Shown here one piece after another: positions 40,260 through 46,131 of a DNA stretch of 64,000 nucleotides (its first letter is position 1; the number at the start of each line of letters is the position of its first letter). This stretch comes from Fimbriiglobus ruber (GTDB taxonomy: Bacteria; Planctomycetota; Planctomycetia; Gemmatales; Gemmataceae). The position numbers and the translations under genes are program-made. Below the pieces are notes generated by a model, which saw only the letters and a list, made by a program, of their open reading frames with translations, was not told the origin of the DNA and searched no databases. The DNA is taken from NCBI RefSeq assembly GCF_002197845.1, contig NZ_NIDE01000011.1, positions 124,001 to 188,000 of the forward strand. The letters are read 5' to 3'.

Positions 40260-41501
40260 ATGAACGTCCCCGCCCCAACTCGAACGCTTCTCGACTGGCA
40301 TCACGGCCGGCGGGCTCGCCGTATCCCCACGGTGACCGTCCTGGCCGGCCCCGTGAATCTGGGCGTGCGTGTCTGGCGCGGGTGGGCCTCTCCCCGACCC
40401 ACGGCCCTGGTGCGAGCCGCCGCCGATTTCGATGACGTGGCTGTAGCCTGGGTTGAAGCCATCTTCGCGTCCAGCTCCGGTCTCGACCGTGCCCGCTCGT
40501 GGCTTGCCCGAGTCACCAACCAAGACCCGGCCGCGGTCGCCTGCGCCACCGATCGGGTCACGCGGTACGACCTCGACCAACTTCGGCGGTCGCTCCCGGT
40601 CGACCCGAACGGGCCGGCGGCGCGGACCGCCTTCGCGCTGCTGTCCGCCCACGCGGCCGAGGCTCTGCCCGACCCGGTGACAATCGTTCGCGATCTGTCC
40701 GCGGACGGGCGAGCCGCAAGTCGGGCCGTTGTTTTCCGCGGGTTCTGCGAACTGTACCCGGAAGGCCAGTGGCCGAGCGTATTGGTCGTACCTCCGACCG
40801 AAGGCTTGGCAGGGTGGCTCGCCCGGACGGTGGCGTACCTCGAAGCCGTGGCGACGGCGGTGCCCGAACTGCCCGTCGCTGTGGCTGCCCCACGGGTAGA
40901 GAGCGACGCAGCCAGTGGTGATGCTTCGTCGCATATTGCCGCCGTGATCCGGGAAGGGCTCGTCGTTGTCGAAGGACTCACCGAGGGCGAACTGGACGCC
41001 CGCCTACGAGCAGCGGGCGTGGTCCCGCCGCCCACGCCAGCCACGATGAAGCGACTCGTCGCCGACGGGTTGACCGACGACGCGGCGGCTTCGTTCGTCG
41101 AGGCAGCCCGGGCCGTCCGCGACCCGACACCGGACGATGTGGCGTCCGACTTTCGGAGTGTTCACGAGCAATTTCTGTTCGAGCAGCTGGAATCGATGCC
41201 GGAAACCGCGGGCCAATTCCGGCCGAACCGGGCGCTTCCGTTCCTGCACGGCCCCCGGGCGGCCGAGGCCGACCTGTTAGCCGAGAAGCTGAAATTGGTG
41301 GTAGAAGTCGACGGACAGCATTACCATTTGACCCAACCACAGTACCGACGTGACCGGCGGAAGGATTGGTTGTACCAGCAGCACGGGTATCTGGTTCTGC
41401 GGTTTCTGGCCGAAGACGTGGTGGAAGACCTTGAGAACATCCTGACAACCATCCTGACGGCGGTCGCGCTCCGGCGCGACCGTTCCAAACTCGAAAGGTA
41501 G
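40260..41501 (+). CDS. PD-(D/E)XK (DUF559-like) nuclease protein, first gene of a defence-like operon
   Basis: 413 residues. The C-terminal ~115 residues form a DUF559/VSR-like endonuclease domain: HEQFLFEQLESMPETAGQFR, then EADLLAEKLKLVVEVDG (Glu near 337, E-V-D near 350), QHYH, YRRDRRKDWLYQQHGY and VLRFLAEDVVEDLENIL. The R-x-x-R-x-x-x-L-x-x-x-G-Y-x-V-L-R-F ending is characteristic. The N-terminal 290 residues (AVAWVEAIFASSSGLDRARS, RGFCELYPEGQWPSVLVVPP, GLTEGELDARLRAAGVVPP) are unrecognised. The next gene starts 6 bp on. Metal-dependent DNA cleavage is inferred from the fold; target unknown. Confidence 0.75.
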   Translation: MNVPAPTRTLLDWHHGRRARRIPTVTVLAGPVNLGVRVWRGWASPRPTALVRAAADFDDVAVAWVEAIFASSSGLDRARSWLARVTNQDPAAVACATDRVTRYDLDQLRRSLPVDPNGPAARTAFALLSAHAAEALPDPVTIVRDLSADGRAASRAVVFRGFCELYPEGQWPSVLVVPPTEGLAGWLARTVAYLEAVATAVPELPVAVAAPRVESDAASGDASSHIAAVIREGLVVVEGLTEGELDARLRAAGVVPPPTPATMKRLVADGLTDDAAASFVEAARAVRDPTPDDVASDFRSVHEQFLFEQLESMPETAGQFRPNRALPFLHGPRAAEADLLAEKLKLVVEVDGQHYHLTQPQYRRDRRKDWLYQQHGYLVLRFLAEDVVEDLENILTTILTAVALRRDRSKLER

Positions 41502-41507
41502 CCCCTC

Positions 41508-42590
41508 GTGTCCAACCCTGCTCTCATCGACCCGCCCGCAGCCGAGGTGCCGACGCCGGTGGCCGAGGTATCTCCACCTCCGGCCGAACCGTCCCCGACC
41601 GCAACGACAACAGGGCCGCTCGCCGACTTGATACTCGTTCGTTTGCTACCTGCGAAGAAGAGTCTCGGGATCAAGGAAATCACCAACGCCATCAGTGGCA
41701 TGTTTCGTCGAGTGCCCACCGCCGATGAGATCAACGAAACGGTTGCGGCATTGAAGCGAGCCGGCTTGATCGCGGAAGGCAAAGCACAACTCTTGACAGA
41801 CGCGGGACGAACACAGGCGCTGGCGTATCTCGGGATAGCGACGCTACCTCCAAAGGCGAATTGGGGAACGGTCAAAGCGAAATACTTGGTCTCGAAAGCG
41901 CTCGGCTTGTCCTCGACCGACAAGGCCGTGGACGCCAGAAAACTCGCTGCACTACTGCTGAAACAAAAGCTCGATCTGCCGGTCGGGACGCCGAACACGC
42001 CCAGCAGCGTTTTTGAGGCGATCGCATGCCGGCTCCTCGGCTATCCCTACCACATTTCGCTCAAGGCGGTCATTCCCGCAGTCATCAGCGAACGGAATCA
42101 GATCGAGCCGCCGTTGACGGCCGAGAATCTCCCGACGGTTGGTGTCAGGGTTCTTCTCGGCACCACCAAATCCGGGGTGGAGGGCTTACGTGCTGTGGCT
42201 CTGGCGGCGCTTACAAACGGTGACAGGTCTTCGCTGATCGCAGTACCGGACCCTCAATCAAAACCTACGATGCAGCCCGAGTCCGAGCCGTTCGACCTGG
42301 AAGCGTTCGCCAACACGGTCAAGACGGTGGCTCGGGATTGCCCGACCGGCCGTTTCGGTGACGAAAAGGTGTTCGTCAGCCATGTCTGGCGGTTGTTGAA
42401 GAATGAGCCGCGTTTCGCTCCGCTCGGGTTGGCGGGCTTCAAAGAGAAATTGATCGAAGCGGCCCGCGCGAACCTGATTACACTCAGCCGGGCCGACCTT
42501 TACCAGATTCACCAACCGGCCGATCTGGACGAGTCCGAGATCCTCTTCGCGAATACTGTGTTCCATTTCATTCAGGTGGAGAAAACGTAG
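41508..42590 (+). CDS. Accessory protein of the nuclease-ATPase operon, unrecognised
   Basis: 360 residues. A proline-rich tail of about 35 residues (VAEVSPPPAEPSPTATTTGP) is followed by a segment that reads like a winged helix (LILVRLLPAKKSLGIKEITN, VPTADEINETVAALKRAGLI, LTDAGRTQALAYLG). The middle (KAKYLVSKALGLSSTDKAVD, AIACRLLGYPYHISLKAVIP) is helical. The C-terminal part (GRFGDEKVFVSHVWRLLKNE, AGFKEKLIEAARANLITLSR, then ADLYQIHQPADLDESE) looks like a second DNA-binding or adaptor wing. No catalytic motif. It is embedded between a nuclease (6 bp) and a double ATPase (2 bp), so an adaptor or specificity role is likely. Confidence 0.6.
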   Translation: MSNPALIDPPAAEVPTPVAEVSPPPAEPSPTATTTGPLADLILVRLLPAKKSLGIKEITNAISGMFRRVPTADEINETVAALKRAGLIAEGKAQLLTDAGRTQALAYLGIATLPPKANWGTVKAKYLVSKALGLSSTDKAVDARKLAALLLKQKLDLPVGTPNTPSSVFEAIACRLLGYPYHISLKAVIPAVISERNQIEPPLTAENLPTVGVRVLLGTTKSGVEGLRAVALAALTNGDRSSLIAVPDPQSKPTMQPESEPFDLEAFANTVKTVARDCPTGRFGDEKVFVSHVWRLLKNEPRFAPLGLAGFKEKLIEAARANLITLSRADLYQIHQPADLDESEILFANTVFHFIQVEKT

Positions 42591-42592
42591 TC

Positions 42593-45500
42593 ATGCCATC
42601 CACCATCGCTCCCCCACCGACCTCGACCGATCCTCGCGTTTCGGCGTTCTGCACGCCGGTTGGACCCGAAGTCTTTAGCGCGATCGTCCACGGGAATCAG
42701 ATCTGGACTCCTGACCCGTACGACGCCCAGATCGTTCATGCCGAAGCCCGCGAAACGTTTGATCGGTTATTGGCGCGGGCTTCATCGCAGGAAGCGCCCG
42801 CGCACGGCAAATCACTTCTCTTGTTGGGCGACGCTGGCAGTGGCAAGACGCACCTCTTGCGCGCTTTCCGTGCCACCGCCCACGCCAACGGTGCCGGATA
42901 TTGTGGTTATCTCCAGATGAGTACACGGGCGGACAGCTACCCCCGTTATCTCCTGAGTAACCTCATCGATTCTCTGGAGCAACCGTATAGGCCTGGGCTC
43001 CCGGAGACCGGTTTGGTACGGTTGGCTCGTGGGTTGCTCGATGCGCTGGACATTGTTCCGGAGGCTGAGCGGCAACAACTCTACGACGACTTGATCGAAC
43101 CGGAGCAGGCGGCCCGGTTGGTTTATCGTTTTGCTGACATCGCCGTTCAGTACCCGAAGTTCCGCGGGATCGATGCCGACTTGCTACGTGCTGTCCTTTT
43201 CATGATCCCGAACGACGGCCGAATTCGCTCCCGCGTGTTGAAATGGCTCCGATGCGAGGACATGAACCGCTTCGAGCGCGAACTGATCGGCGATCTTGTC
43301 CCACGCCCTGGGGCAGAGATGCCGATGCGGACTTTGATCGGGTTGGGGCAATTGATGTACACCGTCCACTCTGCTGCGCTCGTCCTACTCGTTGACCAGA
43401 TCGAAGAAGTCCTTGACCACGATAAGATCGGTACAGAGAAAGGGGAAGTTCTCAGACACATGGTCAACGCCGTCGTGGACGTGATGGACGGCGTCCCTAA
43501 CGCGGTGATCGTGTTGGCGTGCCTTAAAGAACTATTTAAGGTGGGAAAGAACTACCTGCCGAAGCCGAAGCTTGACCGACTGGAGCGCGATCCAGACCCT
43601 GTCAACCTTTCACACAAGCGAACCGAAGCAGAAATCGCGGCAATGATCAAACCGCGTCTGGAAGCAGTTTTTGAAGCAGCGGATATCACTTGGGATTCGA
43701 GGGACCCGATTGCACCTTACACCGATAAGGACTTGAAAGGCTTAATTCTATTCCGCCCTCGAGACATACTCGACAATCTGCGCCGCCACCGAGAAGCATG
43801 CTTCAAAGCAGGGCAGTGGGTCTCGCCGACGTGGATTGATTCTCTGACCACTAAAGAAGCAGGGCAATCTGACAAACATGCAGATGGCAACATTGATTGG
43901 CAGCAGATCTGGAACGATTTTCGCAATGCACAAAACCTACCTATTCCGCGGGATGAACCTCAGCTCGCAGAGTTACTGAAATCCACCATCAAAGCAGTAT
44001 CAGCAGAGATGTCCAGCGGAGTGTTTTTCGGGGCCGAGCAGGACGAACGATTTGTTTCGGTCGAGGTACACGGACCCGGGAACACGGTGGACAAACTCTA
44101 CGTTGCGGTGTGCGATAAAGGCGCACGCGGACTAGCGTCTCAAATTGAGGATGTCGCAACTAAAGCTGGCGAGATTCCCGCGGTAGTTGTCCGATCGACG
44201 GAATTCCCCAAAGGCCCAACGGCAGCATCGACAAGAGCCCTCGCCAAACTCATCGCCCCGCGCGGCAAAGGGCGTCGGGTCGTCGTCGCGGACAGCAATT
44301 GGCGGGCGATGGCCGCGTTCCGCGAGTTCCACGGCAAGCACCACAAGGAGCCTGGCTTCACCGATTGGCAGCGCGCGGACCGGCCACTGGCCGAACTCCC
44401 AGCCGTCAGCGCGATTCTTGCACTCGACAAACTTCTCGCGACGATGCCCACCCCCGTAAGCCCACCTCCGCCGCCGTTGCCGCCGGCCGGGTTGCCGAAG
44501 GAAGTGGCCGCGGCAAAGCCCGTCGCGCCACCCCCGCCGCCCACGGTAATGGACGCGGTTCGTCTCGGTGCCTCACGGGGGCAACTCCCGTTTCCGGTCG
44601 AACTCAAACCCAAAGACCTGTGCCGGCACGCCGCGTTCCTGGGCGGGTCGGGTAGTGGCAAAACTACCGCAGCCTTGACCGTCATCGAACAGTTTTTGCT
44701 GGCCGGTATTCCAGCCGTTCTGCTTGACCGCAAGGGCGACTTGTCCCAGTACGCCGACCCGGCCGCCTGGACAATTGCGGAGTCGGACCCGGAACGGGCC
44801 GCCCGCCGGGATCAGCTCCGGGCCGCGGTCGACGTTCACCTGTACACACCCGGGGCCGACGCCGGCCGACCGCTCGCGATCCCGATCGTGCCCTCCGACC
44901 TAGGCCAACTCACGGCGGCCGACCGGGAACAAGTCGCCCAGTACGCAGCGGCTTCCCTCGGTGCGATGATGGGTTACAAGGGCAAAAACCCGGACGCGAA
45001 ACTGGTCATTCTTCAGAAGGCCATTGAGGTTCTGGCCCGCGCGGCGGGGGCAACAGTCACGGTCAAGGCCGTGCAAAAACTCGTTGCCGATCGAGACGAC
45101 GCGCTGACCAACGCGGTGGACGGGTTCGAGGACAAGCATTACAAGAGGCTGGCCGAAGACCTTCTGACTCTGGCCCACCAACACCGCCGACTGCTGGAAG
45201 GCGCGGACCAACTCGACGTGGATACCCTGCTCGGCCGGGGCACGGCCGCCGTCGCGGGCAAGGTCCGCCTCACGGTCATCAACACGCAGTTCCTTGGCGA
45301 CCCCGTCACGACCGATTTCTGGGTATCCCAATTCCTGCTCGCGGTCGACCGCTGGCGGGCGAAGAACCCGGCCCCTGACGGCATTCTCCAGGCGGTGTTT
45401 CTCTTTGACGAAGCCGACCAGTACCTGCCGGCGACCCGCCAGCCTGCGACCAAGGGGCCGATGGAACGACTACTGAAAATGGCCAGATCAGCCGGCATTG

Positions 45501-45805
45501 GCATCTTCCTGGCCACCCAGAGCCCGGGAGATTTGGACTACAAGTGCCGTGATCAAGTGCTGACATGGCTCATCGGCAGGGTCAAGGAACCGGTTGCGAT
45601 CAACAAATTGAAGCCGATGCTGGAAGGCGCACGCGTAGACGCGACTTCCAAACTTCCAAACCAAGAAGTCGGGCAGTTTTACCTCGTCCGGGAGTCCGAT
45701 GTCACCGCGATCAAGGTCGACCGGAACCTGATCCCGACATCCCAACTTCCCGAAAACCGGGTGCTGGCAGCCGCCCAGCGCACGGCCAAAGCCGCGGCCA
45801 CATGA
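42593..45805 (+). CDS. Double P-loop ATPase: AAA-type N-terminus plus HerA/DUF853-like C-terminus
   Basis: 1070 residues. Module 1: Walker A GDAGSGKTH (about 79-87), HLLRAFRATAHANGAG, Walker-B-like LVLLVDQIEEVLDH (about 265), VIVLACLKELF. Centre (about 450-610): SGVFFGAEQDERFVSVEVHG, AVVVRSTEFPKGPTAASTRA, a possible restriction-enzyme-like or regulatory domain, then a proline-rich hinge (VSPPPPPLPPAGLPKEVAAA). Module 2: GGSGSGKTT (about 684), AVLLDRKGDLSQY, VFLFDEADQYLPATRQPATK (about 936), KMARSAGIGIFLATQSPGDL, NQEVGQFYLVRESDVTAIKV, all as in HerA/FtsK-type DNA translocases. Codon use between about 43.5 and 44.2 kb is noticeably AT-richer. Probably the motor of the system. The cupin gene overlaps its stop. 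Confidence 0.8.
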   Translation: MPSTIAPPPTSTDPRVSAFCTPVGPEVFSAIVHGNQIWTPDPYDAQIVHAEARETFDRLLARASSQEAPAHGKSLLLLGDAGSGKTHLLRAFRATAHANGAGYCGYLQMSTRADSYPRYLLSNLIDSLEQPYRPGLPETGLVRLARGLLDALDIVPEAERQQLYDDLIEPEQAARLVYRFADIAVQYPKFRGIDADLLRAVLFMIPNDGRIRSRVLKWLRCEDMNRFERELIGDLVPRPGAEMPMRTLIGLGQLMYTVHSAALVLLVDQIEEVLDHDKIGTEKGEVLRHMVNAVVDVMDGVPNAVIVLACLKELFKVGKNYLPKPKLDRLERDPDPVNLSHKRTEAEIAAMIKPRLEAVFEAADITWDSRDPIAPYTDKDLKGLILFRPRDILDNLRRHREACFKAGQWVSPTWIDSLTTKEAGQSDKHADGNIDWQQIWNDFRNAQNLPIPRDEPQLAELLKSTIKAVSAEMSSGVFFGAEQDERFVSVEVHGPGNTVDKLYVAVCDKGARGLASQIEDVATKAGEIPAVVVRSTEFPKGPTAASTRALAKLIAPRGKGRRVVVADSNWRAMAAFREFHGKHHKEPGFTDWQRADRPLAELPAVSAILALDKLLATMPTPVSPPPPPLPPAGLPKEVAAAKPVAPPPPPTVMDAVRLGASRGQLPFPVELKPKDLCRHAAFLGGSGSGKTTAALTVIEQFLLAGIPAVLLDRKGDLSQYADPAAWTIAESDPERAARRDQLRAAVDVHLYTPGADAGRPLAIPIVPSDLGQLTAADREQVAQYAAASLGAMMGYKGKNPDAKLVILQKAIEVLARAAGATVTVKAVQKLVADRDDALTNAVDGFEDKHYKRLAEDLLTLAHQHRRLLEGADQLDVDTLLGRGTAAVAGKVRLTVINTQFLGDPVTTDFWVSQFLLAVDRWRAKNPAPDGILQAVFLFDEADQYLPATRQPATKGPMERLLKMARSAGIGIFLATQSPGDLDYKCRDQVLTWLIGRVKEPVAINKLKPMLEGARVDATSKLPNQEVGQFYLVRESDVTAIKVDRNLIPTSQLPENRVLAAAQRTAKAAAT

Positions 45806-46131
45806 CCACACCCGCGAACCTCTTCCGCGACCTGCCCGCGCACCTCCCGGACGAGGTCGTGCAGACGCTCACGGCCGCCGGCGCGGTGCGTGTCGAGCGG
45901 ATCATTTCGCTCGGCCACACCTCTCCGCCCGGTTTTTGGTACGATCAGCCGCAGCACGAATGGGTGACCCTGCTGACGGGGGCGGCGACGCTCCGGTTCG
46001 AGGACGAGGATCAGCCGGTCGACCTGCGGCCCGGCGACTTCCTCACCATCCCCGCCCGCCGCCGACACCGGGTCGAATGGACCACCCCGGACGAGCCGAC
46101 GATCTGGCTGGCCGTACACTTCGGAGACTGA
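45802..46131 (+). CDS. Cupin-domain protein
   Basis: 109 residues, single cupin barrel: ERIISLGHTSPPGFWYDQPQ, EWVTLLTGAATLRFEDEDQP, VDLRPGDFLTIPARRRHRVE, WLAVHF. Metal-ligand positions (H in QHEWV, H in RRHRVEW) are present. Its ATG overlaps the stop of the double ATPase by 4 bp (ATGA), so it is co-translated with the preceding operon, and the esterase begins 5 bp after it. Small cupins of this sort are usually stand-alone housekeeping proteins, so membership in the ATPase system is not certain. Confidence 0.75.
   Translation: MTTPANLFRDLPAHLPDEVVQTLTAAGAVRVERIISLGHTSPPGFWYDQPQHEWVTLLTGAATLRFEDEDQPVDLRPGDFLTIPARRRHRVEWTTPDEPTIWLAVHFGD

Follow-up and report, generated by a model that had tools for sequence, protein, structure and literature searches.

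What does the tightly packed four-gene operon at positions 40,260 to 46,131 of this stretch of the planctomycete Fimbriiglobus ruber do, and which of its genes belong together? The window, that is the whole stretch of DNA analysed, covers 64,000 nucleotides of contig NZ_NIDE01000011.1 (positions 124,001 to 188,000 of the forward strand). On the basis of sequence, structure prediction and comparative genomics, the first three genes (A, B and C) are read as a predicted defence against invaders (phages or plasmids) of the Orc/CDC6-coupled HerA/FtsK 'capture' kind, armed here with a nuclease, at a probability of roughly 0.72. The genes are:

40260..41501, plus strand: gene A, 413 amino acids, ATG start; putative effector nuclease with a C-terminal DUF559 domain
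41508..42590, plus strand: gene B, 360 amino acids, GTG start; predicted winged helix-turn-helix (wHTH) adaptor or sensor
42593..45805, plus strand: gene C, 1070 amino acids, ATG start; ORC/CDC6-type AAA+ ATPase, inactive restriction endonuclease (REase) domain and HerA translocase
45802..46131, plus strand: gene D, overlapping the end of C by 4 base pairs (bp); cupin with a Cupin_2 match

The open reading frame (ORF) coordinates bear out the layout described in an earlier first-pass annotation of this DNA, with four plus-strand genes and gaps of 6 (A-B), 2 (B-C) and -4 bp (C-cupin). The cupin ORF is listed from 45565; the ATG at 45802, 4 bases inside the end of C, is the natural place for it to begin.

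Conservation and spread of A-B-C

Loci from other genomes were scanned with hidden Markov models (HMMs), built for A and B from the first homologue set and for C from a ten-homologue alignment; the window-family loci L066-L084 and the extra Rhodococcus loci L089-L092 lay outside HMM training. In 42 of 43 loci B immediately precedes C; the remaining one, L080, is cut off by a contig end. A lies upstream of B in 31 loci, is absent from ten, and at one more (L092) the contig ends. The A-B-C order recurs in genomes outside the training sets. These counts support A-B-C as a real, conserved unit and exclude that the three genes never co-occur elsewhere, an outcome on which the first-pass annotation had let its proposal depend.

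B-C loci occur in planctomycetes, actinomycetes, an alphaproteobacterium, Polyangiaceae and Hydrogenedentota, and span at least five phyla. Within the phylum, 6 of 392 sampled genomes carry a full-length C homologue, and of 94 other genomes in the window's family about 19 have C homologues, two of which are broken or truncated at a contig end; the 12.4-Mb host genome has one full-length copy. Further full-length homologues come from Tsukamurella, Nonomuraea, Methylobacterium, Polyangiaceae, Glycomyces, Amycolatopsis, Actinophytocola, Rhodococcus, Actinoplanes and Hydrogenedentota. In Rhodococcus, the genus of locus L047 and the sole actinomycete genus sampled for prevalence, 5 of 18 genomes carry C. 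The C tree has two deep subfamilies, both present in the window's family. The window's B, used as a single query, gave no match in two actinomycete genomes, though the profile finds B adjoining C there, because B has diverged too far for a single-sequence search. In Tsukamurella, A, B and C are annotated as 'DUF559 domain-containing protein', 'hypothetical protein' and 'DUF87 domain-containing protein'.

Carriage by phages or plasmids was considered and set aside: viral contigs and phage records yielded 0 copies each and the plasmid collection three records, of which at least the Tsukamurella one is probably chromosomal. In this plasmid-labelled record (NZ_LR134464.1; L039, 4271-9239), A-B-C lies between rpsQ and rplN, together with a DEAD/DEAH helicase and genes of the VapBC type, and the record's chromosomal origin is probable since it carries this ribosomal-protein gene cluster. 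A separate 401-residue protein consisting of HerA only (L035, 7582-9128) is 42% identical to the HerA half of the window's C and is accompanied by a full-length copy in the same genome; it is possibly a decayed second copy of C.

Domain architecture and known relatives

The domain calls of the first-pass annotation were largely upheld by profile searches. Gene A ends in a DUF559 domain (PF04480, Pfam expectation value (E) 5e-10, residues 337-402), and the whole Vsr-like PD-(D/E)XK domain spans residues of about 300-402. Its active site looks intact, because residues E303, D338, E349, D351, D365, R366, D369 and R381 are identical in 28 of 28 aligned homologues, a pattern that looks like that of an active DUF559/Vsr-like nuclease. 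The N-terminal region of A is separate and conserved across the A homologues, without a match to any known family, and the Pfam scan of A gave no SIR2 or DUF4297 match. Gene B, described earlier as lacking a known domain and resembling a winged helix, has no Pfam match at E<=1. The winged-helix assignment, with an N-terminal wHTH, nevertheless holds at the level of sequence profiles, because the weak PDB matches to a profile of 20 B homologues (best E 0.009) are mostly ArsR/MarR/IdeR-type winged-helix regulators aligned over one shared N-terminal stretch. The DUF6293_C winged-helix model matches three B members (best E 0.001), and weak profile and model matches point to winged-helix-like regions at both the N- and the C-terminus. 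B proteins of the window's Gemmataceae-type subfamily have an additional insert in the middle. Gene D is a cupin as proposed (PF07883 E 5e-10; TIGR03890, nif11_cupin, E 2e-30).

Gene C combines three predicted modules:

42650..43852, plus strand: C residues 20-420, ORC/CDC6-like AAA+ module; Walker A near 79-87, Walker B near 265-269
43955..44362, plus strand: C residues about 455-590, REase-fold domain without conserved catalytic residues (inactive REase, iREase)
44540..45712, plus strand: C residues 650-1040, HerA/FtsK translocase; Walker A 685-691, DE 939-940, sensor Q976

The two separate Walker sets and the proline stretch between them, reported before, stand; the count of modules does not, since an iREase domain lies between the two ATPases. 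Pfam recognises AAA_22 and HerA_C/DUF87 in C (PF05872 E 4e-12). In an alignment of ten diverse homologues, both Walker A motifs (G79/G82/G84-K-T-H and 687-691 GSGKT), D268/Q269, D939-E940 and the sensor-1 residue Q976 of the HerA module are invariant. A proline-rich linker joins the two halves. The AlphaFold2 model of the whole protein is of moderate confidence (pLDDT 71, pTM 0.44). In VIA-align comparisons, residues 20-420 resemble ORC2 (1w5t, Z 16.0, root-mean-square deviation 3.5 over 261 residues), CDC6 (1fnn, Z 15.5) and TnsC (7ufi, Z 14.8). For residues 650-1040 the matches are SIR2/HerA (8wod, Z 20.1), SsoHerA (19.9) and DndH-C (7es4, 18.3), the HerA-NurA structures 9x1m (Z 19.8) and 7f6d (Z 18.1) are also high, and TrwB appears at Z 14.8. 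The models support HerA as the closest structural family of the C-terminal half, including SIR2/HerA, DUF4297/HerA and DndH-C.

The middle domain folds well on its own (residues 424-625, pLDDT 86, pTM 0.84) and is followed in the models by a few helices at about residues 590-616. Foldseek gives it one hit with E under 0.001, to the restriction endonuclease EcoT38I (E 1.2e-4), and the REase fold is assigned because this match agrees with the alpha-beta-beta-beta-alpha-beta order. PD-(D/E)XK proteins (VC1899, Cdn1, PaqCI, EndoMS, EcoT38I, Can2, BspD6I, BsaWI, Cap4, NucC and MspJI) fill many of the top VIA rows, at tied Z values of 5-7; singly these values prove little, since rows for RPB5 and acetyl-CoA carboxylase turn up as well. 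Because the alignment shows no conservation at the catalytic D and (D/E)xK positions, the modelled domain is read as an inactive REase fold.

This domain set has been described in kind. Orc/CDC6-coupled HerA/FtsK capture systems were predicted in silico in mobile neighbourhoods (Rakesh, Aravind and Krishnan 2024; PMC10853773). According to the text of that paper, they comprise an Orc/CDC6 ATPase followed by an inactive REase, HerA/FtsK, wHTH parts and an active REase that belongs to either of two families, arranged in one or several polypeptides and sometimes joined by an extra, fast-evolving protein with 2-4 wHTH domains. The ORC/CDC6 part is proposed there to localise the restriction apparatus and HerA to intercept the invader. 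A-B-C has the Orc/CDC6 AAA+ module, the iREase, HerA/FtsK, an active-looking REase and a putative wHTH protein. It may differ in its REase, a DUF559 protein, a family mentioned neither among the two active-REase families nor elsewhere in the text of PMC10853773, nor in that of PMC12839542, as far as these texts go; literature searches that paired DUF559 with either anti-phage or DUF87 returned nothing. A-B-C is accordingly filed as a member of this kind by domain composition, with the family of the active REase and the wHTH following the iREase provisional. The first-pass annotation could not equate the operon with a named system and saw the unusual part in the combination of AAA, HerA and DUF559; going by the text of PMC10853773, both statements give way, as the described systems match at the level of domain composition.

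Other relatives share single parts. SIR2-HerA (Nezha) and DUF4297-HerA also pair a HerA motor with an effector enzyme and give the top structural matches to the C-terminal half (Z about 20), but they consist of two proteins with a standalone HerA, whereas HerA of the operon is fused to the ORC/CDC6 AAA+ module and the iREase and has a wHTH partner and a DUF559 effector. DndFGH shares the C-terminal HerA/FtsK, in DndH, and perhaps the multi-wHTH partner, in DndG; DndH, however, carries an inactive helicase, methylase and REase before HerA, eight domains in all, whereas the operon has ORC/CDC6 and no DndF, and the PADLOC match of C to DndH (E 0.007) concerns the HerA end only. BREX-Related Capture (BRC), a related BREX-hybrid from a follow-up paper (PMC12839542), likewise brings together ORC/Cdc6 AAA+, a wHTH component and HerA/FtsK, but has PglZ, a DUF6079/BrxC-like protein, a STAND NTPase and DUF4007, none of which was matched in the four genes; Pfam, PADLOC and NCBIfam gave no match there to PglZ, BrxC-like or BrxA/DUF4007 components. 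MADS was rejected as well: its 314-residue mad8 model aligns to the HerA half of C (PADLOC E 7e-21) but to nothing else, and is the sole mad match in the four genes.

Effectors beside the B-C core

What is attached to B and C varies. Four loci, of which three are independent, document an exchange of the effector; they do not amount to a systematic survey. In L048, a TIR gene and a KGGVGR-motif ATPase ending in CATASP (PF20271) precede B and C with gaps of 1, 7 and -4 nucleotides; the same four genes are found in L046, where the TIR-ATPase gap is 3 nucleotides. L042 is a locus of the window's subfamily, and there a gene for a caspase and bDLD3 protein starts 13 nucleotides past C; B is frame-disrupted near its end in this metagenome-assembled genome. 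In L043, a gene for a CBS-domain protein lies upstream of B and A is absent. No recognised substitute effector was seen in the A-less loci L033, L038, L044, L049 and L051. In the C tree the two TIR loci pair as sisters, whereas A occurs in both deep subfamilies; this indicates that A probably came first and that the exchanges are derived.

Two observations lie beside this picture. The gene after the caspase-bDLD3 gene of L042 (13139-16981) encodes a 1280-residue protein with an RNA polymerase alpha-CTD and sigma-70 region 4. L076 and L077 hold near-identical B-C pairs, with A only in L076; the loss of A in L077, between a sigma-factor gene and B, seems recent.

Since other effectors stand beside the same core, B-C is best read as a sensor-motor that triggers the attached effector, which suggests a DNA-sensing core with exchangeable effectors. 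In the broadest form of this idea, B-C would be a general DNA-sensing motor that triggers unrelated effectors (DUF559, a TIR NADase through a KGGVGR/CATASP relay, caspase-death-like and CBS proteins) and would form a widespread modular immune platform, a proposal to which we give slightly less than an even chance.

Weighing the defence reading

The defence reading is favoured for several reasons: the patchy distribution, with about a fifth of the family, very few genomes of the phylum and two deep C subfamilies in one family; the constancy of B-C and frequent presence of A, the invariant residues of A and the exchange of effectors; and the domain set of C, which is that of the systems predicted in the text of PMC10853773. 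In one window-family genome, an IS3-like transposase ORF pair interrupts C (L083, 6629-7757), which fits a dispensable gene and is counted for the same reading. In the proposed mechanism, B and the ORC/CDC6 module would recognise some feature, of DNA or of nucleoprotein, on foreign DNA that is entering or being replicated and would load there, with the iREase-fold domain as an extra DNA-binding or docking surface. By analogy with homologues, from which ring, translocation and target are taken, the HerA ring would then pump DNA, and A, fed or activated by the motor, would cut it.

Several findings speak against this. The operon's neighbours in the window (a GSDH-type dehydrogenase, a GAF protein, hydrolases, a cellulase, a PAS protein, a peroxiredoxin and a sigma-54 regulator) are metabolic or regulatory and form no defence island. 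Elsewhere, a minority of 102 flanking genes match PADLOC families (E<=1e-12), in a scan that was run without a matched background and from which no enrichment is claimed. No copies of A-B-C came from the viral contigs or phage records searched, PADLOC gave no matching system, its generic HerA and mad8 models matching the HerA half of C only, and the wHTH call for B depends on individually weak scores. The flanking matches are scattered, with BrxL at one locus, CARF-HEPN at one locus, and others including mad2/mad3, of which the tested KGGVGR and TIR genes were ruled out as the source. The earlier proposal, defence or DNA processing, stands as the best-supported role of a conserved unit.

The clearest known defence neighbour is found in L074 (4306-7469), where C is followed after 60 bp by BrxL (PADLOC E 4e-139) and a MoxR-type ATPase. 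In two genera (L068, 9203-14000; L078, 1-4565), a second cluster past C encodes small proteins, an IrrE/M78-type protease (capP-like in PADLOC), a 418-residue protein and a separate HerA, and may be another HerA-centred defence operon. In the window itself, G+C is 61.8% across A-C vs 64.7% and 66.2% in the flanks, and PSCyt2/PSD1 proteins near the operon give a planctomycete-like content.

Among the alternatives, an abortive-infection alarm survives best. B-C would sense the invader and A, TIR or caspase would kill the host, A by cutting host DNA indiscriminately instead of destroying that of the invader. The substitutes of A, TIR and caspase-bDLD3, are indeed typical cell-suicide effectors; however, a processive DNA translocase in the core goes more naturally with a nuclease that cuts the DNA being moved, and the conservation of the N-terminal domain of A with the core suggests physical coupling. 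We regard this as a tenable minority option, about as probable as one in three and overlapping with the figure for defence, being an alternative mechanism inside it.

A DNA-repair or end-resection machine, in which HerA and A act like archaeal HerA-NurA and the ORC-like module loads on breaks, would account for the linkage of a nuclease gene to a HerA gene and for the HerA-NurA structures near the top of the matches to the C-terminal half. It appears unlikely in view of the patchy spread within one family, the replacement of the nuclease gene by those for TIR or caspase proteins and the identity of A, which is DUF559 and not NurA. Still less likely is a mobile-element or conjugation module, with an ORC/TnsC-like AAA+ protein and a HerA/TrwB-like pump serving element upkeep or transfer. 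TnsC and TrwB are among the fold matches and mobile-looking neighbourhoods are reported in the text of PMC10853773, but A-B-C was not seen to be accompanied by any transposase, relaxase or integrase, the flanks differ between loci and are mostly housekeeping genes, and one C copy is itself interrupted by the IS3-like element. That the cupin, which overlaps C by 4 bp, completes a four-gene system by binding a small-molecule signal is hardly credible and its place as an operon component in the first-pass annotation is rejected, because profile and neighbour comparison found a cupin homologue beside none of the other loci; it is probably a co-transcribed passenger outside the system.

Read as a defence, A-B-C is a compact three-gene version of the predicted capture systems that extends across phyla and can be cloned and tested; no experimental follow-up of the 2024 ORC/CDC6-HerA prediction was found in the literature search. 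The TIR, caspase or CBS genes that replace the nuclease beside the HerA core and the DUF559 identity of that nuclease go beyond the text of PMC10853773, and if the broader proposal is true, the B-C platform would be more than a restriction machine, with an exchange of effectors that, judging from that text, had not been reported before. This opens the question of whether a signal is passed from the ORC-HerA core to a nuclease, an NADase or a caspase. Related B-C cores with different effectors offer a natural experiment on whether an ORC-type initiator ATPase and a HerA pump jointly recognise foreign DNA.

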